Shown here: piece after piece, positions 3,274 through 64,000 of the stretch
Position numbering within the stretch: the stretch's first letter is position 1
Layout: each line of letters opens with the position of its first letter
DNA from: Mesostigma viride
Lineage: Eukaryota > Streptophyta > Mesostigmatophyceae > Mesostigmatales > Mesostigmataceae
NCBI GenBank assembly: GCA_009746045.1
Contig: RPFO01000065.1
Coordinates: forward strand, 9,000,542 to 9,064,541
Direction: 5' to 3'
DNA length: 64,000 bases
Position numbers and translations under genes: made by a program
Notes under the pieces: generated by a model
Told to the model about the DNA's origin: nothing
The model's input: the letters and a program-made list of their open reading frames with translations, nothing else
Database searches by the model: none

Positions 3274-5659
3274 CTAGACCGCATGGGTCGCGACAAAGTC
3301 GGCCCGGGTGCGGCGGAATAACACATCAGCCACGGTGCGAGTGAGGGCGAGTGACAGACGCTGCCGCCAATACGAGGACCACGTGCGGGCCGACCACGGG
3401 GCGGTCTGACCCTCGAGGTCGAGGCGGTCTTCACGGCGCTGGCAGCACTCGTGGAAAAACTCCGCTGTCTTGGGGCCCATGGCCCCGAACTCCTCAAGGA
3501 CAAAGGGGATGACCCGGTGGGGCCCCACATTGCCGTAGGAGGCAAACTTGTCGCGCTCAGCCACAGCGGCAGCAGCGCCGGCATCCACAGCCGCCCGGAG
3601 GATGTGGCGACCGGAAAGCGGCCGAGCCACGGAGACATCGATGAGCAGGTGGCAACCCTGCCCGTCGTAGTCAAGCACGGTAATGTCGGGGCGGTGGTTG
3701 GGTGAGTAGAGGGCGGCCCCATCCGCGTCCTCGCACTTGATGGTGGAGTGGGGAAAGACCGACCGAACCATGGCACACACCACCCGGAGGAGAGCGGTAT
3801 GGAGATAGAGGAACCAGTTCTGGTTCTGCTGGCCACCCATGCACGCGATGTAGTGCGTCCCAGTAGTATCCAGAGCAAGCCCGCAGCTGCCGCAGGACGC
3901 ACCCGCCGTGATGAGAGGTTGCGGGGCAAAGAGCTGGTGGCGGAGAGCGATGGCGTAAAGGGCCGGAACCAGTGTGAACAAAGGGCTCATGGGGAGGGCG
4001 CGCAGGAATGCGGACCCCACGCTCCCCTCAAGGGAAACGGAGTGAAGCCAAGCCTTCCCCTGATCGTTCAAGCTCGCATGCAGACCCATCCAGTCGGCAC
4101 AGTGTAGTATACCCGCGTAGGTCTTTTGTTGTTTTTCATGAACGCAGGCAGGGAAGACACTAGGACTGACGACAGTGGACACGCCGGGCGTGCCCCGGGG
4201 CAGGCGACGGTGGACGGCCTGAGCGGGGCGGACGAGGTCGCAAGCCTGCTGGATCCCGAGGTAAGAATCCTGCACAGCCTGCACAAAGGGGAAGGGGGAT
4301 GGGGTGACCAAGTCGGGAATGGCGCTGACGGCGCTGGGGACCAACCGGCGGATCTCCGCCCAGGCCTGAGCAACAGAGCCAAGGAAGGCGGCGGGGGCGA
4401 GGCGGGCGGCGCGGGTGAGCCCACACCCGCCCATGCGGCAGGGGAGGGTGGCCAAGCGCATGGAGTGAGCTGGCAGGCTAGGGCCGGGGAGGAGCACCTG
4501 CAAGGCGGCCTGAATGCGCTCGTCATGGCCTTCCGCGGCAAGCCGCACCAAGTGGGGGGGAGCGCCACGGAGCCAGTGAACCACCCGCGGGTGGGCGCAA
4601 AACCACAGGAGGAGCCCTTTGGTCTGGGGGTCCTTGAGGCGCGCCCAAGTCTCGAGGACATGGGTGCGCTGTTCCACGGTGGCCCGGAGCTCCTCTTCGA
4701 CGTAGTCAGGGTCACCCACAGGGACGCCCAGGCACGAGAAACCACGCGCCCGCGCCAATGCCCCCGGGATAGCCGCGGGGAAGCCAGAGCAGTCCCCCTG
4801 GGGCGAAAAGACTGCACACTTGGGGAGGGTGAGCCGAAGGTTGATGGCCGCCATGGCCACTTCAAGGGCAGCCAGGGCGGCAACCACAGCGTCGGCCGGG
4901 CCAAGGGCATGGATATCGTCCATATAGGCGAGGAGCACGACATCCGGGTGCGCAGCGTGGACACCTTGGAGAGCCTTGTGCAGCGGGGCAGACAGGTAAA
5001 AGGGGCCGAGGGGGTCACCTTGCTGGGTTCCCGTGCGGGAAGCGATGTCGGCGAACGTCCCATCCTCCATGAGGAAGGAGAGTTGAGTGGGTTCGCCGTA
5101 GCAGGCTGCTGTCCACGCAAGAAGGTCAGGGAACGCCTCGCCGACGGCCTCAAAGATGCTAGCCTTGGTGACAGCATTGAACGCATTGTGGCAATCCACC
5201 TTCAGCGCCACATGGGTCGGATGCGTCTCGAGGTAGGCCTGAACTGTGTGCACGATGATGTCGCTGCCCCCTTTGGTGGCGACGCCAAGCTGGGCCGCGA
5301 CGGACTCCTCAGTATCACTCCGGTTGGGGCAGAAGTAGGCGCGAAACTCGGGGGCCTTTTGGCGACAAATGACCTTACTCACCAGCTTGCGTAGGACCTC
5401 GCCGCAAGCAATGGGACGAACGCGGCCAGCAGGCGGGGGGACGTCGTCTTTCAGGAGGGCAATGAGGCGTGCCCCAGCCAGCCAAGGGCGCGCCGCGGGG
5501 GCCAGGGACCCCGCGGCCAAGTCGGCAGCAGCCTCAAAGAGTGCGGTCGCCCCGCCATGGCCCGCCATCACGGAGAGGTGCTCGTAGCGCCAGCCTGAGG
5601 GGCCGGTGGAGGAGGCGTTCGGCAGATCCTTCAGCACAGCCGTGAAGATGTCCAGGTCC
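3274..5659 (-). CDS. Reverse transcriptase with C-terminal restriction-like endonuclease (3' part of split ORF)
   Basis: The frame is open from the hAT insertion point to a TAG at 3,274-3,276, about 795 codons. It shows RT motifs in order: RLIALLKDD near residue 60, a CHNAFN palm motif near 150, TQQGDPLGP near 205 and the catalytic YMDD box near 240. Next comes a thumb-like region. The C-terminal third holds a CxxC...H...C knuckle (CGSCGLALDTTGTHYIAC, near 585-600) and a nuclease signature RPDI...HLLIDVSV near 645-665, with a following basic residue. These features fit target-primed reverse transcription by R2-like elements, where the nuclease nicks DNA and RT copies from the nick. There is no ATG at the upstream end; the first candidate start (5,637) is GTG, because the true frame continues upstream across the transposon insertion. 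The domain itself looks undamaged. Confidence 0.85.
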
Positions 5660-6177
5660 AGGACAATCAGAGTGAGATCGTACGTTATACGCGTTATACG
5701 GTCACGGTGGAGTATAATGTATAATACGGTATAATGCGGTATAATACGGTATTATACGTTTTCGTACGGACACACTCAGAATACTCTGATTTTACACATT
5801 TTAAGACACCCACCATCAATCCACATGTTTTTAACACTGTTTTGGACATAATCCAAGGTTGCCCTACCCTCGGCTATACTCTATACGGTGGATATTGTGG
5901 ACACGATCGATGTATTGCATGTAATACTGAGAATGTAAACGTGCGCATGCATAATTGTGTGTATGTGTATATATGTGGCTTTATATTGGTTATGTTTACT
6001 TGGGTGCCTTCACTTTGATGCAAGTAATTATATATTTTAATATATATATGTGGCTGTGCATGCACGCAAATACTACAGTAGTATACAATTAATGCATGTA
6101 GTATGTTTGCATGGTGCGATGCTATGTGAATATACTGAGCTGCATGTGACTACAGGTGTGTGACTCGTGGTGTGCAT

Positions 6178-17439: not shown

Positions 17440-19360
17440 TAGCACATAGCCCTGAGAAGGGGCATATGAGCCTATAATACATTCTAAGCTACTTCCTGCA
17501 AGGGTGGGAATGTAAACAACACTTGCTCTAGGTGCACCAGGGCACCCGCACCCTCATGGTCTATCACGCTATGCCCGGGTAAGGGGGGAGCATGCCTGTG
17601 AGGGGGAAGATCATCATGGCTATACAAGAGCTATGGCATGGCTTCTCAGCAGAGAGTGACTCCCTGCATGGGCACAACATTACTAAATAAGGCTAGGCAT
17701 CGTCTGGAGTGTGGCACATCATAGGCACACATGTACATGACTAAAAAGGCTAGGCCTCAGCTGGTATAGTGCCTGTAGTAGGCGGGCATGTACAAGGCCA
17801 CTGTCTAACTATTCTACACTACTGCTGTATTCCCCTAGGCTGGGGCTGGAGTTGCTGGGGCCGCGGTGGTCGAGGGGGTCGCTTGCCAGGGCTTGTGGCC
17901 GACGTAGATGGCCGCCCCCTTCCAGTACACCGGCTGGCCCGCCTTGGTCTGCCGGAGCTGGAGGTAGGTCTGCCATAGCTCCCGTCGTCGTTGTTGCTGT
18001 GCCAGGGTCAAGTCGTCGTCAAGGGTGAAGAGAGTCTTCTCGAGCCGCTTGCGGCGTCTGAGAAAAGAAATCTTGTCCGCCGGGGTCTTAAAGGTGAGAA
18101 GGAGCGGGGGCGGCCCGGCCTTACCCCGCGCGCGGGGAAGGCGGTGGGCGGCCAGCTCGATCTCACCAGTAAGGCCCATGCGATCAAGGATTTCTCTCTC
18201 AAAAACACGCGCAAGCTTCTCGGAATTCTCACCTTCCTCCATCTTGAGATTCTTGACAATGACGTTGAGGCTGCGCTTGGCGAGCTCGGCCTCAGGACTC
18301 GCGGAGGTCAAGCGTCTGCCGCTGGAGCTGGGCTGCGACGGCGGAGGTGGTGGAGGTGGTATGTTGCTTAAGCATGTCCGCCCAGGTCGTGATGGGAGGA
18401 GCGTCGCCGGCCAGGCCAGCCGAGGCGGGCTTGGCGGCAATGTCCTTCACTGCCTGGGCGGTGAGGCCTGCTGTGTTCTGCAAGACCTCGATGGCGATTG
18501 CATTATCCTTGAGGCGCTGGTCGATGTCGCGGAGCTGGGCGGTGATGGAGTCGGTGGAGGCGGAGGGGGGGGGGGGGTGGAGGCGAGGAGGGTGGCGGTG
18601 GCGGTGGGGTGGTGGGAAGCTCAGCAGCCAGCGTGCCGCCAAGTGCCGCCACATCTGCGGCAAGAGGGGTCACGTGCTGCTCGAAAGCTTCCTTGAGGAG
18701 GGTGCGGATGGTGGCTTCGGTGGGGAAGGTGGAGGGGGGCGGGGGGGAAGCCCAGAGCGCGGATTCGGAGCGTCCAGCAAGGGAGCAGAGGGCGAAGCGT
18801 TGAAGCTTGGGGCGACTCATGCGGTGGAGGATTGGGAGAGCCTCGGCGGGGTCGACAAGCTGGCCATTACCAGGCCAGCGGCCGCGGTTGTGGGACGTGA
18901 AGTGCACGCACAGGGTTAGAAGCGAGGCGTGATTGCCGGAAAACACGTCGTCCATGAAGGCGCCTATGCCTTGGCGCCAGTAGCTGGGGTCGTTGGCGTC
19001 AAAGGAGCGCTCTTCCCAGGGCGGCTCAGCAGAGCGACTGCGCTTGGGGTCAGGCGAGGCAGATGGCGAGGCAAGCCCGGGAGGCTGGGCGAGCACCAGT
19101 GCACGACTAGTGTCACCGTTGCCATCTGGGCCGGTGGGCGAAGCTGCAGCCGAAGCTGCAGACGTAGTATCATTGCCGAGCGCAGCCGCCAGGCTGCGTT
19201 GCGTCGAGAGGCGTTTGCTCATCGTATATTGCGTAATGGCTTCGGAAAATTACATCAGCATGTGCGTCGTAGAAAGACGCATCGATTGTGATATTCACGG
19301 CTAAATTCGGTGCTCAAACGTGAAAGTTATGAGCTCCGCCGTCAGCCATGGCTACCTCGT
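17417..19360 (-). mobile_element. ORF1-only LINE-like retroposon ('half-LINE'), copy 1
   Basis: From 5' (19,360) to 3' it has a leader homologous to 36,537-36,670, one ORF1 reading region, a noncoding 3' UTR of about 400 bp and the terminal hairpin with TTAA tail. There is no reverse transcriptase or endonuclease anywhere between the shared 5' end and the tail, and the second copy at 34.7-36.7 kb has the same limits. The structure resembles mammalian HAL1 elements, which keep ORF1 and the 3' end but lack ORF2. The coding region is frameshifted (see ORF1 entry). Confidence 0.75.
17835..19222 (-). pseudogene. LINE ORF1-like protein, frameshifted
   Basis: The ATG is at 19,222; the N-terminus MSKRLSTQRSLAAALG matches MTSKRPPTQRSLADALG of the intact copy at 35,178-36,536. 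The frame is lost in a long G-run near 18,566-18,580, continues in another frame through about 18,300, and shifts again to end near 17,835. The C-terminal part has the shared block LTLAQQQRRRELW followed by PVYWKGAAIYVGHKPW. This resembles the C-terminal domain of L1-type ORF1 proteins, which are RNA-binding chaperones that package element RNA. The two frameshifts mean that no full-length protein is made from this copy unless the homopolymer change is an assembly error. Confidence 0.75.
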
Positions 19361-34704: not shown

Positions 34705-36670
34705 AAATCATAGCTCCGTTGGGAGCATATGTAACACATAGCCCTGAGAAAGGGGCATCTATGGGTTTGTAATACAATCAGGGCTACAACCTGCAGGTGG
34801 AGGATGTACAACTGTCACCTGCTCTGGGTGCACAAGGTGCACCTGCACCGCCATGATGGTTCATGCCTCCTTAACAAGCACAGGCACCCAGGGGGGGCTT
34901 GAGGAGAGGGCCTAGAAGGCCTGCATGACATATGCTCAAGGTGGAGGGTATGTGGCTAGGCTATAGCTGGTGTACACATGGCATCTCAGCAGAGAGTAAC
35001 TCCCTGCATAGGCATCGCATGGCTAAATTCTTAATGCATCATCCATGGGAGGTCCCATTGTAGGCTGGGCGCGGCTAGATACTGAAAGCATCATCCATGG
35101 GGGCCATTATGGGCGCACATGCGCGTGGGCCACTTGCAAAGGCTAAGCCTATCTAATCTACACTACTGGTATATTCCCTAGTCTGGAGTGGCAGGAGGGG
35201 CCTGCCAGGGCTTGTGGTCAACGTGGATGACCGCCCCCCTCCAGTATACCGGCTTCCCCCCTGCACGCTGCCGGAGCTGAAGGTAGGTCGGCCATAGCTC
35301 GCGTCGCCGCTGTTGCTGGGCCAAGGTCAAGTCGTCGTCCAGCGTGAAGCGAGTCTCCGAGAGCTTCTTGCGGCATTTAAGGAACGCCAGCTTGTCCGTC
35401 ATGTACTTAAAGGTGAGGAGCACGGGTGCCGGGCCAGCCTTCCCCCGCGCGCGGGGGAGGCGGACAGCCGACATGTCCAGCTCACCAGTGAGTAACATAT
35501 GGGCGCTTAACTGGCGCTTAACAAGAATGGCGGGCTTAACTGCCTCAAGGAGACTCGTGGAGGTCTCACCTGCCGGCTGGTCGAAGTGCTTGACGATGAC
35601 ATTGTGGCTGCGCTTGTCGAGCTCGGCCGCCTCGCGAAGGTCGAGGGCTTGTTGCTTGATTTGTGCCGCGATGGTGGAGGTGGTGGAGGTGGTATGATGC
35701 TTAAGCAAGTCCGCCCAGGTGGAGGGAACATCACTGGCCGGGCCAGCAGGTGCCGGCTGGGCAGCGATTTCCTGCACCGCTTGGGCGGTGAGGCCGGCGG
35801 TGTCATGCAAGCTCTCAAGGGCGGTGGCGGTGGCTTGAAGGCGTTGGTCGAGGTCGAGGAGCTGGGCTTTGATGTCGGCAGTGAAGGCGGAAACGGCGGT
35901 GGAGGTGGAGGCGGCGGCGGTGGAAATGTGAGGAAGTTCAGCAGTCAGCGTGCCGCCGATTGCTGAAATGTCGGCAGCAAGGGGGGTCACGTGCTGCTGG
36001 AAGGCTTCCGTCAGGATGGAACGGAGTGTGGGGGCGGAGATGGATGGAGCCCAGATCTCGCCATCGGAGCGCTTGAGGAGGGAATTGAGAAGGGTATGCT
36101 GGAGTTGGGGGCGGGTGGTCCCGAAAAGCAGGTGGATGTTAACCCAGCGGATGCCGTCCGGGGTGAGGAGGCGATCGGTGTCGTGGAGATGGAGGCACAG
36201 GTCGTAAAGCGAAGCGTAGTCCCCGTAGAAGATGCATGTCATAGCATCGGACGGAGGCATGTTGTCCCAGTCGTAATCATCGACCTGGAAAGGCCGGGGC
36301 CGAAAGCGCGGTTCTGAGGGGCGTGAAGACCCTCCTGTTTGTCGGGCGCGTTTAGGGTCAGGCGATGCTGAGGGCGAGGCGTTGAGCCCGGGAGGTTGCT
36401 GGGCGACCACCAGTGCACGACTAGGGTCACTGCTGCCTGCCGGACCTGGCGGAGCTGCAGCCTGAGCTGCAGACGGATTTTCATGGCCGAGCGCATCCGC
36501 CAAACTGCGTTGCGTCGGGGGGCGTTTGCTCGTCATATATTGCGTGTTAGATTCGGAAAATTATATCAGCATGTGCGTCTTAGAAAGACGAAGCGATTGT
36601 GATATTCACGGCTAAATTCGGTGCTCAAACGTGAAAGTTATGAGCTCCGACAGCCATGGCTACCTCGTGG
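34690..36670 (-). mobile_element. ORF1-only LINE-like retroposon ('half-LINE'), copy 2, intact ORF
   Basis: Roughly 2.0 kb from a 5' end near 36,670 to the hairpin at 34,709-34,731 and the TTAA tract at 34,687-34,704. The 5' leader (36,537-36,670) is nearly identical to 19,223-19,360 of copy 1. The only coding region is ORF1; the 445 bp after it are noncoding. An intact ORF and clean ends suggest recent mobility, driven in trans by an RT-encoding relative. Confidence 0.78.
35178..36536 (-). CDS. LINE ORF1-like RNA-binding protein
   Basis: Intact 452-residue frame, ATG at 36,536. The N-terminal 100 residues are Ser/Pro/Ala-rich with a basic PDPKRARQTGG patch that could be a nuclear signal. 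Residues about 200-290 contain long Ala/Gln/Leu-rich helices, possibly a coiled coil for oligomerisation. Residues about 300-400 (HNVIVKHF to a PVLLTFK segment) resemble the RRM-like core of L1 ORF1 proteins. Residues about 405-450 (LTLAQQQRRRELWPTYLQLR then KPVYWRGAVIHVDHK) match their C-terminal domain. The family role is coating element RNA and chaperoning nucleic acid during target-primed reverse transcription. Assignment rests on motif spacing, not on a database search. Confidence 0.75.
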   Translation of the reverse strand: MTSKRPPTQRSLADALGHENPSAAQAAAPPGPAGSSDPSRALVVAQQPPGLNASPSASPDPKRARQTGGSSRPSEPRFRPRPFQVDDYDWDNMPPSDAMTCIFYGDYASLYDLCLHLHDTDRLLTPDGIRWVNIHLLFGTTRPQLQHTLLNSLLKRSDGEIWAPSISAPTLRSILTEAFQQHVTPLAADISAIGGTLTAELPHISTAAASTSTAVSAFTADIKAQLLDLDQRLQATATALESLHDTAGLTAQAVQEIAAQPAPAGPASDVPSTWADLLKHHTTSTTSTIAAQIKQQALDLREAAELDKRSHNVIVKHFDQPAGETSTSLLEAVKPAILVKRQLSAHMLLTGELDMSAVRLPRARGKAGPAPVLLTFKYMTDKLAFLKCRKKLSETRFTLDDDLTLAQQQRRRELWPTYLQLRQRAGGKPVYWRGAVIHVDHKPWQAPPATPD

Positions 36671-47400: not shown

Positions 47401-50400
47401 AATTTGACCAAGACAGGAATTTCACCAGCCAACAGAGGCCGACCGGACATCAAGTTGAATGAAACTGAACCAGACACGCCTATGCACGCACATCCAAAGG
47501 AAAATGTAAATTGAAGGGGAGAAAACCTTTGAAAGGCTTACACAAAAGCTTTGGTTTGGTGCAAGCAACGTTGGGCCTGTACCGTGGCTTTGCGTCCGTG
47601 CGTTGCTTCATGTTGCTTTACGTTGGGCTCACGGTGGCTTTCCGTTGATGTGACCCCTTGGTTCAAGGGTGACCCTACCCTGCCATAGTATATCCCCTTG
47701 ATTCAAGATTGCCTTTGTAAAAATCCGCCATATGATGAGGTGGCCAGATACGCTCAAGCCACAGCCCTTCTGCACAGCCCAGCTTCACAACACCCCACAC
47801 GCCAGCTCCCCACCCATATCAATGGGACAAAACCCCACCCATACGTACCTTCCCGCGCGCACACACAGCCCAGACATAGCACTGACACACCCGTGCACCC
47901 TATGACCTCCATGCCGCCCTGCACGTACTTTCCCGCGCGCAGCATCGCGCGCAGACAGTCCGGATCGTTCCGCAGCGCCTGCCGGCACTCCTGCAGCGCG
48001 TGCGCGGGCTTGTTCAACATGACCAGCGCAGCCGCACGGTTGCTGTGGCACAGCGCCAGCTCGCTGGCATCTGCCCCCTCCTCCCTCAAATGCCCCACGG
48101 CGCGCAGGAACAAGTCCGAGGCTTCCGAATACTGCTTCTGCGAATAAGCATTGCGTGCCTGCTGCCGGATCGTGTCCCCCAGCTTGGGCCGAGACCCCTG
48201 GCCACCGAGCCCGTGGGGGGCGCCTGCCGACGCAGGCCGTTGCGGAGCCGCCCCCCCCACCCCCACGGGCGACACCCCTGCCTGCAAAACCCCCTTAGAA
48301 CCAGGGGACATCATTGCAGGCGCAGGGGCTGACTTGGCCCCACCTGTCCGCCCAAGGACCTTCCAAGACCCGTTCGCACGCATACGGCCCTGCGCCTGTG
48401 CCTGCCCTTGCCCATGACCCAGGCCTTGCCCAACAGCGGCAGTGAACGTCGGCGTCGTCTGGCGGGTGTCCTCCTGAGAGATGGAACCCGGGCCTCTACT
48501 GGCAGCCCCGCTCCCCCGCGCAGGGTCCCCCAGGTTGAGCCTTGCCGTGTTCTCCGCCAGAATGTCGGCTTCCCGCGACGACGACACGGACGGCACCGCC
48601 GGCTCCGACGACACCGACGTAGCTGCGTGGGGCCCATCCTTCGGCTGCTGCGGCGGCTGCTGCTGCTGTGATGACTGCCTGAGGAGCGGGTCCTGCAAGC
48701 CTTGCTCAGCCGTCGAAGCTGCCCCCGGTGCTGGCGGCTTGCGCCGCGCCCCGTCACCGACACCACCGCTGGCCCTGGCACCTCGCCGCGCACCTCGGTG
48801 CATCGCCGACTTGGACTTGGCCCCTGGGGGAGGCGGCGACGACCGGCCGAGCGACAGGCCCACGAACCCAGGCAGCGGGTTGTCCTGCGCCGCCGCTGGC
48901 TCCTGCCCGGCCACGCTCCCCGTCGCGCTTCCGCTACCCCTGGTGCCTGCATCGGCCGACCAGGCGGTGGCCAGCTTTGCAAACCCGGCGGCGAAGGTTG
49001 GGGCAGATGAGGGGGAGAAACCGGGAACGGCAAAGAATGCGGGTGGTGGCGGGAATATAGGTGGTGGCGGAGGGAAGTTTGCTGCCGGCGGCGGGAACGT
49101 GGATGCTGGCGGTGGTGTGAAAGTGGGTGCGGGCGCAGAGGCAGGCCTGCTGATGCCGGCACGAAATACAGGGGTGGAGAAGGACGGGGGGGCGGCTGCA
49201 TGGGTGGCCACGAATGGCATGCTGCCAGCTGTCGCCCCCGCACCCGCGGAGGGCGCCACGCCTCCGGTGGCAAACCAGCCATTGGCCGTGCTGGGCGCTG
49301 GGGCCGCCTGTGCGGTTGTTGCTGTTCCTGTTGATGATGTCAACATGGCTGCTGCACCTGCCGCCGCGGCTGCCGCCGTTGCGCCCGCCGCTGCTGCTGT
49401 TGTTGCTGTTCCTGCTTGTGCTGATGACGTGGCTGCTGATGACAGGGGTGGCGCTGTGGTGGTGGCCGAGGTCGATCTGCCCGATCCTCCGGACAAGGCG
49501 GAAGCCACTGAGAATGGGAAGGAGGGTGCGACAGGTGGCGGCCGTCCGCCACTTGCCTCCGGCGGCGTGCACGGTGGTGAGATATCCATGAAGGAGGGCG
49601 ATGACGAGGACGACACCGCTGCCGCCTGCTCACCGCTCAACCCCTGTTGGCGCCCGTCACCTGCTATTGCGGTTGCTCCTGCTGCTGCAGTCGTGGCATA
49701 CCGTTGCGACCCAACAAAGGGGTTGGTGCTGCTGCCGCTGCCACCACCTCCGCTAGTTGGCCGCTTGGGGTGCACCCCCGCCTTCTTTGGGACCCTGGAC
49801 GTTTTCTTGGGTGGGTGGGCGGAAGCGGTGCCCGCTGGGGGTCCCCGCCCAGGGGCCATGGACAACCCGGCCCCAAAAGCAACCCCAGGTGGAACACTCG
49901 ATGTGGTGCCCGGTGCCAAGGGTATCGAAGAGGCCGCAGGCGCGGGTGCTGGGTGAGAGGATAGTGGATGCGGATTCAAGGGTTGGGTACTGCTGCGGGT
50001 GCTGCTGGCACTGGCAGTGCCCGAGAAACTGGTTGGGATGTCTGATGGAACCGCCGGCTGTGGTTGGCTACTGGCGCCCGACGCACCACCAGCGTCAGCT
50101 TTCCCCGCTGCAGCATCGGCACCCGCTTGTCTGGGTGGCCATAGGGGTGCCTGCGGTGCCCACCCTGGGGCCGCCCCCTGGTCCTTGCCGAGATTCGGGG
50201 GCCAGAATACGAAACACGGAGCGAGGGGCGTCGCGCCAGCTGGCATGCCGGGGCCTGCGGCCGCATTTGACGGCATCACGGACGGAGCGTAGTAGAACAA
50301 CCCGGGGGGGTTCGTGGTGGGGCCCTGGAAACCGGCACCGAAAGTGAAACCTGGGAACGCGGTGGTTGGGTGGGAAGGGCCGCCCGGCTGTCGAGCAGCG

Positions 50401-51284
50401 TTGCCCTCCGCAGCCCGTGCAGTTTGAGGTTGCACGTTTGGTGCAGGGGCGTCGGCCTGCATTGATGGTGTGGTGCGGGGCCCTGGGGAGTGCGAGGGCG
50501 AGGGAGGTGGCACCCTGGACCCCGCCGGCGCCTCCAGGTCGAGATCTCTCGTGGCACAGCTGCTGTCATCCGTGTGTGCTGGCTCTACCGAAGCGGGGCG
50601 CTTGGGTGAGAGCTTGACTTCAGGTCCCTGGTGGGCCCCCTGGCTGCTACCGGGAGCTGTCATTGTGGCCGCCGTGGGCGAGTCTGCAAACCGCTCTCGT
50701 GGTGGAGCCGTGGCGCCAAAGGAAAACGTGGGGGGTGGCGCAACCAGATTCGGCATGGCTCGGTGTCCACCGGTGTCCTCCGCGGAAAACGGTTTCCAGG
50801 ATTCAAGGACGACATCCAAAGGCGGGTTTTGCTGCCTGTCAGTCGTGGAAGGGGCGCGGTCGGCGATGCCGTTTGTAGTCCCCGGAACTTTACTGCGACC
50901 GGCGACGACCTTGCCCTTTCTGCGAACGTGGGTGGCCGCGGTTTTCTCGCCCCCCGTCCGCCCGGCCGCAAACCCCACGCACGGCGGCTGCACGGGCGGC
51001 GGCCGGACAGGTTCGGCGGGAAAGTAACCCGTCGTGGCACGAGGAAAAGCCGCCACCGGGGTAACATTCTGCACACCGGGCATGACTGGAAATTGAAATG
51101 TGGGGAAGGTGGCAGCAGTCGGCTGCATCGAAAAACTCTCGGGAACGTTCGGAGCTGGGGACGGGGCATGACCCGTTGCAGGGACCGTCGGCGATCCATG
51201 ACTCATTCTTCTAACACCGTTCATAGCAGTTCCCCCTGCGTCAGCTCGACCCTCATGTTTTCCCAGGACGGACGCTCCATTCAT
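38458..51284 (-). CDS. TPR and DnaJ-domain co-chaperone with long low-complexity N-terminus
   Basis: Nine exons join in phase with GT-AG introns: 51,284-47,929, 46,879-46,498, 45,834-45,292, 44,703-44,569, 43,806-43,735, 42,115-41,886, 40,733-40,655, 39,448-39,314 and 38,547-38,458, giving about 1,673 residues. Residues 1-1,020 are Pro/Ala/Gly/Ser-rich with scattered FG motifs ([24 protein letters not shown]). TPR helices follow ([76 protein letters not shown]). A C-terminal J domain carries an intact HPD (in LRHHPDK, near residue 1,597) and ends [16 protein letters not shown]. The J domain activates Hsp70 ATPase while the TPRs bind Hsp70/Hsp90 tails. The order resembles DNAJC7 and plant TPR-J proteins. 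A 45-residue segment after HPD is longer than usual. The ATG is the first in frame; an upstream exon cannot be excluded. Confidence 0.85.
39020..39313. repeat. Diverged partial duplications of an exon/splice-donor segment
   Basis: The exon end encoding YSVLHDIDK plus its donor (39,314-39,340) recurs in the adjoining intron. A copy at about 39,198-39,245 (minus-strand SVLHDMDK followed by GTGAT) and a weaker one near 39,045-39,090 alternate with a GCATGGCTGCGTGGC block. The copies create decoy donor sites. Confidence 0.6.
41563..41716. repeat. 31-bp minisatellite, five units, intronic
   Basis: Unit of the form AACTAACCCCAAGAGAGAAA plus ACCTATCCAAT, repeated about five times with an occasional GAGAT variant. 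It lies in the TPR-J intron between 41,885 and 40,734. Confidence 0.9.
42120..43734. repeat. Intron with a 620-bp GGTGGATG minisatellite
   Basis: Within this TPR-J intron, 42,336-42,958 is an 8-bp repeat (GGTGGATG) with sparse GGTGGAGG and GGTTGAGG variants arranged in higher-order blocks. A GGGGAA minisatellite lies at 42,252-42,290 and a GT tract near 42,135. All six frames stay open through the repeat only because the unit lacks stops; none is coding. Confidence 0.9.
46916..47225. repeat. GGGC/GGGT-rich tract in a TPR-J intron
   Basis: About 310 bp of GGGT and GGGC tetranucleotide repeats on the plus strand, with GGC interruptions. Dense runs of three or more G residues could form many G-quadruplexes in the non-template strand of the gene (the gene runs on the minus strand, so its transcript is C-rich here). 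Confidence 0.9.
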
Positions 51285-52060
51285 GCTGTCGAGGTGGGAG
51301 GAAAAGCCCTTCTGCAAATCAACGCAAGTTTAGCGTTGAGTGTCCCGCAGGAGATTCCCGTCACCACATGCGTTGATTCGATCTATTATTTAGGGAAATA
51401 CGCCCGTCTGGACGTGTTGGGGACAGTCAGGCAATAGACTACGGGCATTGGCTCAACCATGGTCTAATGGCGGCGGTCAACCAAATGGCAAGACGCGTTT
51501 CGGATTATTAAAAAAAATATTGCTCGATGGCGTCCTACTTGGCTGCGATGGCAATCCATAAGTTGCACGTCAGCCAAGCATCTCGAGCCCGTCCGATTAC
51601 CTTGGGAACACGTCGTAATTCCTGCACGTTGGAAATAGAGTCTGGTGGCAATACGTTCACTGCATCTAGCTCTGCGGTCTGCGCGTAATAAAACAACAAA
51701 AGATTGATAATATCGGCAATAATTACTGCAATGTTAGTGCAATTGTTACTGCAATGTTGTTGTTGTGGTGGTTGACTTGTTAACTAAGAGCCTTTCCACA
51801 TATGGTGACGAATTAGTGCGAATTAGGAGGACTCGGATTGGTCCGGACCGCAGTTCCAGGCTCGAGGTCTCATTCGGCGCGGCGAATTAGAATGAATTAG
51901 CGGTGAATTAGTCGGGACGGGGTTTCCACATTCAGTTCCGATCCAACGGCGGCGAACAAGTTCCCGCCTTTTTGTGTGCATCATGGCACGTGCTTGACCC
52001 TAAAAGTGAAAACTGCACCCCGTCGCCCAGCATTACACGCCATAACCATCTGGCATCGCT

Positions 52061-57785: not shown

Positions 57786-60700
57786 ATGTCGCGGTTCCTG
57801 GTACATGGTCTCCACGTTCAACCCTCAAAAAGCGCCTGTTTGAATGTATGTTTAGGTAGGAGGTCGTTCAGTGCGATAGCTGTCCAAAATCAGGTTAGTT
57901 GCCGGTTGGGGGCCCCAATGCTTCCAGACGTAGGCTATGCCCCGACGGATGGGCGAGTTGTCACTACCTGTCCCGGGCTATGCAGTGCGAGGGCATCCAC
58001 CTCGATCGCAAAGCCTGTCCGGCATCCTGCCGGTGGGGCGACGCGTTCCTTGAAGAGCGGTTTTCTGGGTAGCGAGAACTCTGTTTGTCAGGAAGTTTCG
58101 CTGAAGCGCGACTCTGGCAGCAAGCGTACGCCGGTGGTGGCGAACCTTGGAGGTGCTGGCGTACGTATGGCGTCTGTGCGAAGCGCGGAGGCCTCACTGG
58201 TGGCTCGCACGCTCGAGGAGCAATGGATACGTGAAACGGTGAGCATTCGCGTAGCAACCGCGCTTGAACATCTTGAAGTTCGTGATAGTAAAACGTTCTC
58301 AGGTTCAGGAACGCGCTTTTTTTTAGAAGCTGGCAAGGGTCAGACGGATCGTATGTCCGCAAATATCTAGTATTGGGTATCAACCGTATGCTAGGCTTTT
58401 CCACACATCCCCTTGACAGCTCGTTAATTAAGTTTCAAAGTTCAAAAAGGCGTATTCCATGATTCCCTTAAAATTTTATGCGTGTGTGTCACCCACAGTC
58501 GCTCTTACCATATCTTAATGCTCCTGGTGCCAAAAATGCTCTCACCCTCCCCCCCCTTCCCCCCCCCTGGTCCTTAACCACCACAGGAGATCTACAGCGT
58601 CCCAGCGCCCCTCCCTCTCGCCGCCTGGCTTGACACGCTCTCCCCCGACATCCTCGCAGTGCTGGACAGGATCCACACGCATGGCGGGAAGGCGTACCTG
58701 GTGGGCGGCTGCGTTCGCGACGCGATCTGCGGCGTGGTGCCCCGCGAGGTCGACATCACGACCAACCTGCACCCGGAGCAAATGCTAGAAATATTCGGGG
58801 ACGCGGCCGAGGAGACCGGGTCCCGCTTCGGATGCGTGACTGTCCACCATGGGACCGCGATTCTCGAGATCACGACCCTCCGCCGTGACGGCGACTACAA
58901 GGACAGCCGCCGGCCCGAATCTGTTGTCTACACTGAGTTTCTCGTGGAGGACCTCGCGCGTCGGGACTTCACCATCAATGCCATGGCGGTGTGTGCGCGG
59001 TCCCGGCGGCTGTATGACCCCTTTGGCGGCATGCTGGACGCCATGTCGAACGTGCTGCGCTGCGTGGGCGCCGACCGGTCGCGCCACCTGTCTGAGGATG
59101 GCCTGCGCGTCTGGCGCGCGTACCGCTTCCTCGACGCCGGCCGCAGAGGTGTCAGGTACGTCGAGCGGTCCACCCTGGACGCCCTGCACAATCCGGACGT
59201 TGTCAAGGCGGCCGGCGCGGTGGCGATGGAGCGCGTCTGGAAGGAGCTGTCCAAGATCCTGGTGGGCATCCACGCGTGTGACGTGCTGGCGCTTATGGCA
59301 CGCACGGGTGTGCTCCAGCTGGCGCTCCCCGACACGGGGATTCATGCTGGCAGCCGCGGCGTGGTCGCGCAAAAGTACTTGCTGAGGGAGTGGCGCAAGC
59401 ACCACGCGGCACACCCGCACCACCGGCAGTCGCGCGTGAGCTTCCAGCACCTGCTGGAGGAGCTCTCGGATCGAGAGATGCGTGGCGGCGAGGCGTCGAT
59501 GCTCCACAAGGGGTACCTGCTGGGGGGGCAGCTGCTCCCAAGCACGGCCACTGGTGGCAGCGTCGCTGGAGTTGTGGGTGGCAGCAGCGCCGACGCGTCG
59601 GCTGGTTTCCGCCCCGCGTCCTCCTCTTCAGGGTCTTCCTCTTCCTCTTCCCCCTCGCTCCCAGTCTCGGCATCATCTCTCTCTTCCATGGCCACCGCCG
59701 CTGCCACGGCGACCACCGCGACAGCTGTCCCCATGGCGGCCGCAAGCACGACGGCGGCCAGTCACGCGGCGGCGTCCCATGGGCTTGCGCACGCGCACCC
59801 GCCCGTGTGCACAGAGCCGGTGAACGTGCGCTCCCTGGAAACGATCGCGTGCGGGGAGCCGCTCCCGAGCTGCCACCCGCTGGATCGGGTCGCGCAGAAG
59901 TACCGCAGCTTTGTGGTGCTGGACCTGCAGGCCACGTGCTGCGCCAAGGTGGGTGAGGGGAGGGAGGGTGCGGCGGTGAGCTCGTGTTTGTGATGCCAGC
60001 AGGTATTCTGCGTGTGGGGGTGGGGGGAGAGCAGGGCCAGAGGAGTGCAAGGTCAGGCGTTTCAATGTGATGGCCTTTCCTGTGCTGCATGTAGGTCATT
60101 CCCGTGTCATGTTCCTGCCGACGAAGTCATTGCAATCGTGGCTGGCCGTGCCGTGCTGCCGCCGCCGCTGCTGCTGCTGCCTTGCTGGCGGCGGCTGTAG
60201 CGTGTTTTTAAGAACCTGTTAGCTCGCCATGATGCAACAATGTATGCTGTTGTGATCATGAGAATAGGCTGTTGTGTTCATGCAGGTTAATAGACTTCTG
60301 GTGTTATCACCTTTTTTCTTTCCCCCATCATATCCCACCTCCCTCTAAACCCCCTATCGGCGCACACGCCCACACACATAACACCGAATGTGGTACCTCA
60401 TGCCCGGATCGCTCATTTGCTCTAATCCGTTTTGCCTGTGCGTCTGCCCTCATTCCCACGGCCCACCCACCCCTTCACCAGATGCCCGGTTCCGGCAGCG
60501 AGCTGTCGTGCCGCGAGATCATTGAGTTTCCCGCCATCCTGCTGCAGGCGCAGGAGGACGGCTCGCTGCGCCAGGTGTCCGAGTTCAACACCTTCTGCAG
60601 GCCGGCGCGCCACCCGGTGCTTACGCCCTACTGCCTTGAGGTCACGGGCATCGCCCAGAGCACGGTTGACAAGGGGATCCCGCTGGGGGAGGCCCTGGAG

Positions 60701-63700
60701 AGGTTCACCGGGTGGCTGATGGCGCACGGCGCGGGCTCCGTGGAGGTGCGTGCTGTGCGCGTGGTGTGTGGAGTCAAGGAGGTCTAGGGGGGAAGGGAGG
60801 GGGTTAATTCTGCGGCACAAACAGAGTGTGTCATGAGGTCAAGGCAACCAGTGATGGATGTTGGGTTGTGAAACTCCGTTTCCATGGCATAAACCCGTTG
60901 TTTGTATCGTCGTTGGTAGATGTGTCAGCGCATTGTGGAGTTCATGGCGGATATCCGTACTCCTTTCGGCCCCCTTGGTTACATGGCTGTATCCGCTGCC
61001 CCGCTCGCCTGGTCACCGTCTTCCACAGGACACGGTGGTGGTCACGTGCAGCGACTGGGACATCAAGTCGCTGCTGGCCAAGCAGTGCGAGAGCGAGGGC
61101 CTGCCGCTGCCACCCATCTTTGACTGCTGGGTCAACGCACAGATCAGCTACCGCGAGCACTACTTGCGCCCGCGGTCCAGCCTTCTGCTGGTACGTGCCG
61201 GCACGCAGCCAGGCCGTGCCTTGGCTTTGGCATCGACTGATGCTGCTGAAAACCATTATACACAAATCTTTATCCTGTGTTATCTGGGTGGGTAGCCAGG
61301 GTACGGTTTGCCTGTGCCGGTTCTGAGGCTTGTTGCGGGCACCGTGCCAGCTCTGCTTTCCACCCATCCCATCCTAACATTGCCACCACTGACGTCTACA
61401 GTTCTTCCACAGTCTATTGCGATTGTTAAATAATAAGTAGCCCCGGTTTTCTCATTGCTATGCTCTTATGAGATATTCTTACTCAACCATCAGATATTGT
61501 TATCATCTATTGGCCCCTTCCTGGCGATTGGCATGGGTTTTCTGATCTTTCTGCACCCCTTGGCCCTACCCTCTGACCACCACCACCACCACCCCGGTGA
61601 CCATCAGATGCTGTCGGAGCTGGGACTTCCCTTCAATGGGTACCACCTGCGGGGCATGGACAACGTGCGCGCAGCCGCGGCGGTGGCGTGCCGCCTGGCG
61701 CAGGACGGCTGCGTGTTCACGCCTACCACATGGCGCGACGGGACGTGCCACTACGCGGGAGAGGTGAGGAGTGATGGGTGGGGGATTTTGAGGTGAGGAA
61801 TGATGGGTGGGGGGTTATGACGGGAGGAGGCACATTGTGCATTAGCGGTTTCTCAAGGCAAGGAGAAGCACCCTGGACACCTGTTCCGTAGATAGATATC
61901 ACGTGGTTTTATGGACATCACGTGGCGTGCACACCTGGTGGGACCATTTAACCAAACTTGGTTAAATGCAAGTCGCAATGGTGGCGCATACATGGACATG
62001 TCCACGCGAAAGTGGCCACAATGTCTTGGTGGATGCCATATTTTCCTCGTGATCTGCCTAGTGTCGTGCCTACCCCTCGCCCTCCCCGCTCACCTCCTGG
62101 CACATAATGTCATCACCGCTTTCCTGCCATGGTACCATAACGTGGCATAACATTGTATTTCTCGCAACCCTGTCTCCCCACCGGCGCCACCCGCTTCCCC
62201 TTCTTCCCCACGTGCAGGCGCCCCACCTGGCCATCGCCCGCCTTGCGCTGCTGCTGGGGATGTCGGGCCCCCGCGCGATGGAGCGCGACCTCAAGAACCT
62301 GCGTGTTCGCAAGGATGAGGCCGGCCAGATACAGGCCATCACGCACATGCTGGGGCGGCTGCCAGACCCGGCGTCTGTCGAGGTGAGCCGTGGATGAGGG
62401 AAGAAGGGGGAAAAACCAGATAGCAAGATTGAAGAGGGAGGAAACAGATAGAAGAAGAAAGAGGCCTGGCTTTGCGCTGCCTTAGCGTGACGTTGGTGTA
62501 GAGGTGAGCTCTATCAAATGAATGGGAAGGTAGAAATGGACATGAAACATGAAGAAACGTCCGCGTGGTGAACTGCCTTTGGGTGACGGTGCCCCCTGTC
62601 GCATGCCCCCATGGGAATCTTGCGCATGCCGTCCTACTCCCCCTTGTCCTGCGCTGCCCTATCCCCCACATTTTTCCTTACTATGCCCCACGCTATCCCT
62701 CGCAGCCCGGCCATAACCTGTCCAGTTCTTCTCCCCTGTGCCCTGTCCTACTCGCCCCATGTCGTGTTCTATCACCCCGCGACGTGTTCTCCCCTTTCCC
62801 CCTTGGTAGACTTTCCTGTGCCCTCTCCTAATCTGTCCTGTTCTACTCCCCCTGCGCCCTGCCCTGCTCCACCCCCTGCCCTGCTCCACCCCCTGCCCTG
62901 CTCCACCCCCTGCCCTGCTCCACCCCCTGCCCTGCTTCACTCCCTGCCCTGCCCCCCCCCCCCCCCCCCCCCCCCCCTGCGCCCGCCCCTCAGGAGCTGC
63001 GTGTGTACCGCTGCGTGCTGGGCCAGCACCTGTGCGCGCAGCTGGTGCTGGAGGCGGCATGGGCGCGCAGCCACGCAGAGCTGTCGGGCGACTACTCGGG
63101 CGTGGAGAAGGTGGAGCGCGTGGAGACCGCGCTTCGGCAGTTGCCCGACCTGCGCGCGGGTGGGTCATCGCGGTTGCTGGATAGGCATTGCGTAGGCACC
63201 TCATAATGACTTCTCCTGTTGAACCATCTTAGCTCCTGTGTTTTTCCTGGAGCTAAGGATTCGGCCCTTGTAGTGAGGGGTTGCCTAACTGAAGCCTAGT
63301 GTGTGCTGGTGTCGCACGTCGCACAGGCCAGTGGGTTGTCCTGGTGTCAGTCGTCGCGCCAGTGTCGTCTCTGTGGTTGGTTGCTTGGATGTCTGGACAC
63401 CAGGGTCGCCACCCCGGTCTCTTTGTCCTTGCGCTGGTGCTCTGGCTCCCAACGCGGTGTTCTTATGTTGCTTGTGCCTCCATGTTTGTATCCCATTGCT
63501 TCTCTTGGTGCTATATGCTCGTGTTGAAGCTGTTGCATCTCCTTGATGGGCGCCGTGCGAGTGGTATTGCCATTTGTGTACAAAGGGGGGGTTGGTGACT
63601 TAGGGAGCTGGTCAGCATCCAGCGTGCGCCATATCTAGTGACGGTGGCATAGCCCCTCATTGCTGTGCATACTACACATACTGAGCTAGGGCATGTCGGC

Positions 63701-64000
63701 AGTCACTCAGTGACTGGTGATCATTCACTCAGTCAGGGAGTGGTGATAGAATTCCCCGTGACATGCCTTGGATGGCATGCCACTATCTTTCTTACATATT
63801 TGTTGTCTCTTCGATATCCGTATGTGGGGACCATGACGTGGTTTTGTGCATCCTGCAGGCTCCACGCCCCTTGTCAGCGGCGACTTTCTCATGGAGCGTC
63901 TGGGCCTGCGTACGGGCATGAAGCTGGGCCGGCTCAAGGAGTGGCTCTTCCGCCTGCAGGTGGAGAAGGACCTGGCGTGCCGTGAGGAGGTGTGCGGGTT
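57786..64000 (+). CDS. Class II tRNA nucleotidyltransferase (CCA/poly(A) polymerase family) with embedded ERI1-like exonuclease, partial
   Basis: Exons (GT-AG, consistent phases): 57,786-58,238, 58,587-59,948, 60,482-60,745, 61,029-61,190, 61,608-61,763, 62,218-62,382, 62,994-63,159 and 63,859 to the window edge; over 950 residues, with the end missing. Residues 1-150 are transit-peptide-like (this exon is the least certain). The head domain has motif A LVGGCVRD...REVDITTN (189-211), a flexible loop DGDYKDSRRP (252-261), motif B RRDFTINA, DPFGG and motif D EDGLRVWRAYRF. A neck (VWKELSKILVG) follows, then an Ala/Ser-rich linker (about 470-560). An ERI1-like DEDDh domain then starts at VVLDLQATC (Asp597, Gln599), with CSDWDI (Asp704) and YHLRGMDN (His760, Asp765). 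The transferase body resumes (RLALLLGMSG, about residue 805) and the tail is PLVSGDFLMERLGLRTGMKLGRL. The family adds CCA to tRNAs; ERI1 trims RNA 3' ends. Confidence 0.82.
62870..62978. repeat. Cytosine-rich intron end before an acceptor
   Basis: Five units of a CCCTGCTCCACC-type 15-bp repeat (about 62,870-62,950) run into a C homopolymer of about 26 bases (62,952-62,977), just upstream of the acceptor at 62,993 of the nucleotidyltransferase-exonuclease gene. It acts as, or replaces, the polypyrimidine tract. Confidence 0.85.

Follow-up and report, generated by a model that had tools for sequence, protein, structure and literature searches.

A class II tRNA nucleotidyltransferase of Mesostigma viride with a nested ERI1-type exonuclease fold that has lost catalytic residues

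The last part of a 64,000-nucleotide stretch of the Mesostigma viride (Streptophyta) genome, hereafter the window (assembly GCA_009746045.1, contig RPFO01000065.1, positions 9,000,542 to 9,064,541 of the forward strand), carries a fused gene. It encodes a class II tRNA nucleotidyltransferase with an ERI1-type exonuclease fold nested at the junction of its neck and body. As to function, we tentatively favour, at a little less than even confidence, a CCA-type transferase that adds nucleotides to RNA 3' ends, in which the nested, non-cutting exonuclease fold holds or selects the 3' end.

The architecture is carried by several matches. Pfam places PolyA_pol at residues 187-309 (PF01743; 1e-31, 110.4 bits against a cut-off of 23), PolyA_pol_RNAbd at residues 363-401 (PF12627; 6.3e-5) and RNase_T at residues 616-773 (1.5e-14), and 16 further database proteins share these three domains (17 of 17 with the fused protein included). 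The transferase tail family PF13735 gave a weak match, below its cut-off (0.29); the last 170 residues clearly match the transferase tail of standalone relatives. A sequence search of the PDB returned CCA-adding enzymes for the first part of the protein (E 1.8e-36), and ERI2 (6.8e-29), ERI3 (3.2e-28) and ERI1 (5.9e-26) for the middle part. The predicted structure is consistent with this, resembling ERI1/ERI3 across the insert and CCA-adding enzymes in the parts that flank it. The protein thus has the head-neck-body-tail fold of a class II CCA-adding enzyme, and its insert belongs with ERI1 by both fold and sequence family.

Along the plus strand, the nucleotidyltransferase head and the start of the neck occupy 58611..59138 (residues 160-335) and the neck 59139..59336 (residues 336-401, placed by PF12627 and alignment to standalone enzymes); both sets of bounds are approximate. 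The first part of the insert (59337..59891, residues 402-586) consists of a helix (408-426), a low-confidence helix (435-451) and a disordered Ser/Ala/Thr-rich linker (predicted local distance difference test score, pLDDT, below 50 for residues 429-587), and most aligned standalone relatives have only about 10-25 residues in its place. The second part (59892..61736, residues 587-790) is the ERI1-type DEDDh exonuclease fold, spread across exons 2-5. In L102, a gene from the Marine Group II archaea, two stretches with 93 bases between them correspond to residues 159-404 (42%) and 818-976 (37%) of the fused protein. The exonuclease has therefore been inserted, as a block of about 400 residues, where the neck of an ordinary transferase meets its body.

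A first-pass annotation of the window, made from the letters alone, had read transferase head and neck, then an exonuclease domain, then transferase body and tail, and this order stands, with GT-AG introns that keep the frame and Pfam domains in sequence. The nested rather than end-to-end arrangement that it proposed is borne out by the two neighbouring halves of the archaeal gene, and the ERI1 likeness by the PDB matches and the predicted structure; the Pfam search and structural modelling that it recommended as checks gave the domains and structural matches described above.

The gene spans 57786 to about 64061 on the plus strand and encodes 976 residues in eight exons of a single spliced gene. 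Its seven introns are all GT-AG and 283-699 bases long; introns 1-6 are in phase 0, each with 3-5 stops if retained, and intron 7 is in phase 1. The earlier statement that every intron is in phase is therefore right in that the frame is kept throughout, and needs amending for intron 7. The interval first proposed (58587..64000) likewise needs extension at both ends, as it missed exon 1 upstream and the gene ends outside the window: the stop codon lies at about 64061, 61 bases beyond the window end, and the sequence of the contig past that end (L084) supplied both the last exon and the stop. A database protein of 976 residues (P0001) is 100% identical to our model across residues 150-956.

Exon 1 (57786..58238) holds the ATG and an N-terminal extension (residues 1-151) that is predicted to be mostly disordered, with pLDDT below 50 for residues 1-133. 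Since acidic residues are few among the first 60 (two D/E, with six K/R), the extension is possibly an organelle-targeting sequence. Exon 2 (58587..59948, residues 152-605) encodes the transferase head and neck, the Ser/Ala-rich linker and the first exonuclease strand. The exonuclease continues through exon 3 (60482..60745, residues 606-693), exon 4 (61029..61190, residues 694-747) and exon 5 (61608..61763, residues 748-799), where it ends; the introns between exons 2 and 5 lie at 59949-60481, 60746-61028 and 61191-61607. The transferase body begins in exon 6 (62218..62382, residues 800-854, starting APHLAIARLALLL) and continues in exon 7 (62994..63159), and exon 8 (63859..64000 within the window) carries the tail (TPLVSGDFLMERLGL to LGRLKEWLFRLQVEKDL) and runs on to the stop.

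Because this gene model is built from sequence alone, it might be asked whether gene prediction or misassembly has merged two genes. We find this scarcely credible and rejected it. An uninterrupted frame of 471 codons (58578-59990) holds the head, the neck and the first exonuclease strand with motif I (YRSFVVLDLQATC), so the join of transferase and exonuclease does not depend on splicing; the 16 relatives with the same three domains each lie on their own contigs; and standalone enzymes have this body and tail together with the head. An assembly-join error, named in the first-pass annotation as a possible refutation, is contradicted by the relatives, which have the same arrangement in a single protein, by the 9.78 Mb length of the contig and by the single frame across the first domain join.

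The catalytic pentad of the insert was placed with ERI1 and ERI3, since the aligned His and Asp positions of the ERI2 chain 7n8v are both Ala, which we take to be engineered. In motif I (59922..59930, +) D597 is retained and the catalytic Glu has become Q599 (CAG, 59928-59930). D704 in exon 4 (61059-61061) is retained. In motif III (61644..61664, +) the catalytic His is replaced by L761 (CTG, 61647-61649) and the catalytic Asp by N766 (AAC, 61662-61664). The site thus reads D597-L-Q599, D704, L761 and N766 and lacks the pentad of an ERI1-type DEDDh exonuclease, and the description of this domain as a complete DEDDh exonuclease fails at the Glu, the His and the last Asp. Sequencing error is unlikely, because the changes occur at three codons in two exons. 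The losses belong to the fused gene in particular, as the parts traced of a separate ERI-type gene in the same genome (C1713) keep the motifs DFEATC and GRAHCGLDD. With three of its five catalytic residues replaced, the fold is predicted to have lost cutting and likely no longer cuts.

It seems very unlikely that the Mesostigma protein is an active trim-and-rebuild enzyme all the same, with H760 or D765 standing in for the lost residues. The fold, D597 and D704 are kept, H760 adjoins the lost His position and D765 the lost Asp position, and the pentad is intact in relatives; however, the three replacements fall at positions aligned to both ERI1 and ERI3, and the relatives keep the Glu in 16 of 16 cases and the His and last Asp in 15 of 16 (the remaining one, P0016, is out of frame there). 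The first-pass idea of a single protein that trims and then rebuilds RNA ends therefore does not fit the Mesostigma copy, whose nuclease site has lost the E, the H and one D of DEDDh. For the family it remains a fair hypothesis: where relatives retain the full DEDDh site, aberrant ends would be cut back by the insert and then rebuilt by the transferase.

Decay of the exonuclease domain was considered and rejected. The ratio of exonuclease to head-and-neck identity, taken against nine intact relatives, is 0.74 for the fused protein and 0.68-0.78 for five other, intact members. Given this rate of divergence, no higher than in intact domains, the fold has likely been kept for a non-cutting role.

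On the transferase side, the motifs GGxxRD (residues 191-196), RRDFTINA (276-283) and EDxxR are intact. The catalytic carboxylates of the head are E205-x-D207 (58746-58748 and 58752-58754, +) and E245 (58866-58868), all acidic, with Glu replacing the first Asp of DxD. The neck carries the template E321-D322-x-x-R325 (D322 at 59097-59099, R325 at 59106-59108, +). Among fused members that have these residues, GGxxRD, RDFTxNA, D322 and R325 are identical in every one; template position 321 is E in five, D in 11 and N in one row of a 17-row alignment. Glu for the first catalytic Asp is, as we take it, unusual in class II enzymes. It is shared by 11 of the 15 relatives that have the residue (the other four have Asp) and by the standalone relatives P0092 and P0105. 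In class I, an archaeal CCA enzyme is described as using Glu59, Asp61 and Asp110 (PMC3925840), which suggests that catalysis in the superfamily can work with Glu at this place. At the template, human E164, by our reading the counterpart of residue 321, is reported to tolerate a change to Asp that is viable yet weaker than wild type (PMC11784652).

The Glu and the lost nuclease site, together with exons of a eukaryotic-type CCA gene elsewhere in the genome (below), would fit a full pseudoenzyme, an RNA-binding or regulatory factor with weak activity or none at either site. We regard this as quite unlikely, given that the remaining transferase motifs are intact and invariant where present, and that the Glu recurs in most relatives and in the standalone archaeal-type proteins. 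Another alternative, unlikely though deserving some weight, is that the protein tails RNA instead of adding CCA: it would place A (or other) tails on organellar or nuclear RNAs, with the exonuclease fold recognising the tails. The eukaryotic-type CCA exons would again agree with this, as would the head domain, which is common to bacterial poly(A) polymerases; the bacterial poly(A) polymerase family TIGR01942 matches at 5.8e-31, its 107.8 bits falling below the cut-off of 305.65. The poly(A) polymerase sequence signature is absent from all 17 fused members.

The genome searched comprises 439.9 Mb in 2243 contigs. Exons of the separate eukaryotic-type CCA gene lie on C2023, with LLGRTSSDIDIALDD, FGTPEQDALRRDLTIN and FLDDPLRVLRAVRFG, and match residues 72-291 of yeast CCA1; the match covers the first half of the gene. 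C1355 has a further partial match. A third, intron-rich transferase-like gene on C1912 (L085, G000:C1912:2562000-2571500) has WVRDRVLGKPPGDIDIATS and an unusual EDAMHRDFTFN, and is interrupted by long simple repeats. Because the eukaryotic-type CCA exons and the C1912 gene exist, the fused gene appears to be an additional transferase of the organism, and the idea that it supplies the sole CCA-type enzyme is unsupported. No second fused gene with an intact nuclease was present among the best PolyA_pol or exonuclease candidates listed in the genome. A further ERI-like exonuclease gene (L101, G000:C1053:96000-105000) has the motif VVLDLEGQ and a divergent FHHLGMHD, and is possibly another degenerate DEDDh domain. 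Contig C2011 (L082), of about 1.49 Mb, carries bacterial-type genes, including its own CCA enzyme and an outer-membrane-like protein, and is possibly a Rickettsiales endosymbiont chromosome; Mesostigma viride is described as a host of 'Ca. Megaira', with a chromosome of 1.448 Mb (PMC9098888).

Among 179 proteins fetched, 18 match the exonuclease: the fused protein, its 16 relatives and P0071 of Botryococcus braunii (EukProt name). The last, which stands outside every count of 16 relatives, has the head, the neck and the exonuclease start (LALDIEATC) before the model runs off. These counts are minimum values for the fused family, because profile searches saturate with ordinary transferases; a protein search with the exonuclease-body region gave no new ones. 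In a transferase tree with 25 standalone and 10 bacterial proteins picked by hand, and P0010 and P0016 left out, 14 fused proteins form one clade (100/96, falling to 54/32 when P0018 is included). In the exonuclease tree, from which P0016 was left out, all fused rows apart from P0018, 15 in total, group on one side (93/95). Both trees show the same three lineages, namely the Mesostigma protein, P0006 with P0013-P0015, and the rest, and this agreement suggests that one insertion event lies behind the family.

A viral origin was rejected: 533 viral relatives were found, and for the 80 loci kept from them a tblastn search with five exonucleases (E 0.01) showed no exonuclease within the DNA fetched. 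A prokaryotic origin of the nested form was rejected too, with none in 80 GTDB loci kept of at least 590 relatives, within the DNA fetched. The first-pass view that no standard family has this arrangement held up, and no named family was found. Nor did the listings and abstract openings searched reveal any description of a CCA enzyme that encloses a DEDDh or ERI1 domain; coverage of the literature is incomplete, so that this absence is no proof.

Comparison with known systems sets the fused protein apart in several respects. Class II CCA enzymes (for example Bacillus stearothermophilus 1miv, human TRNT1 4x4w and Arabidopsis 9kma) share its domain order and fold and the GGxxRD, RRDFTxNA and EDxxR motifs, whereas the fused protein has some 400 residues between neck and body and Glu as its first catalytic residue. 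The standalone marine archaeal-type class II transferases (P0092, P0105 and L102) are near relatives of the transferase part and have the same C-terminal W-P residues, but lack the insert. The DEDDh exoribonucleases ERI1 (3'hExo), ERI2 and ERI3 share the whole fold of the insert at about 28-35% identity; in contrast, the insert is nested in a transferase and has lost the E, the H and one D, which its relatives keep. Nucleotidyltransferases with a DHH-type domain (such as P0062, P0063 and P0065) or an HD domain (such as P0019, P0022 and P0026) also combine a builder with a phosphoesterase-type domain, presumably as end-to-end fusions, although the nuclease of the fused protein belongs to a different domain superfamily. 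The DnaQ-like MAEL domain, like the insert, keeps a DEDDh-related fold without the pentad, and is described as binding RNA (PMC7968707); its replacement residues are different, and the available text of that source mentions no transferase link.

Under the reading we favour, the transferase scaffold would bind tRNA or tRNA-like RNA and add C and A residues, and the exonuclease fold between neck and body, disarmed as it is, would hold or select the RNA 3' end. We infer the transferase activity, the nuclease inactivity, the RNA holding, the RNA substrate and its compartment. Several points weigh against this reading. In a class II enzyme, Glu as the first catalytic residue could reduce activity or eliminate it, and CCA addition need not depend on the fused protein, because eukaryotic-type CCA exons are present. 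Residual or shifted nuclease catalysis is conceivable, since H760 and D765 adjoin the lost residues, and conservation of the fold is the single observation from which RNA holding would follow. The exonuclease tree flags the end branch of the fused protein as long (1.55), although the protein lacks a close sister and the two intact lineages have stems of comparable length, 1.19 and 1.47. Finally, P0018, which has a deviant flexible loop and a long branch, falls with ERI1 in the exonuclease tree and may lie inside or outside the fused clade. A wider proposal is that the fused proteins make up a hitherto undescribed family, in green algae and probably in further eukaryotes, of CCA enzymes that proofread: on one tRNA-binding scaffold the nested nuclease would remove RNA 3' ends and the transferase would rebuild them, with the Mesostigma lineage as a natural nuclease-dead version that keeps the domain to sense RNA ends; we consider this possible, with the balance tilting against it.

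Elsewhere in the window, all on the minus strand, lie a reverse transcriptase frame of 825 codons (3277-5751; PF00078, 7e-13) and an uninterrupted frame of 1191 codons (47757-51329) with weak tetratricopeptide repeat (TPR) matches near its end. Two further minus-strand frames (35181-36560 and 18506-19249) have a common start, FSE..TQY..SKR..TQRSLA.ALG, and no Pfam match, and are probably copies of one repeated element. An Rfam scan of the window at gathering thresholds gave no matches.

To our knowledge, the shortening of tRNA 3' ends and their repair fall to different proteins, nucleases for the one and CCA enzymes for the other. The finding shows that an RNase_T domain label is by itself no proof of a working nuclease. 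The fused family offers a natural comparison of intact and disarmed nucleases on the same scaffold, and of Glu and Asp as the first transferase carboxylate. With both folds nested in one protein, trimming and repair of tRNA ends could be studied in a single molecule.
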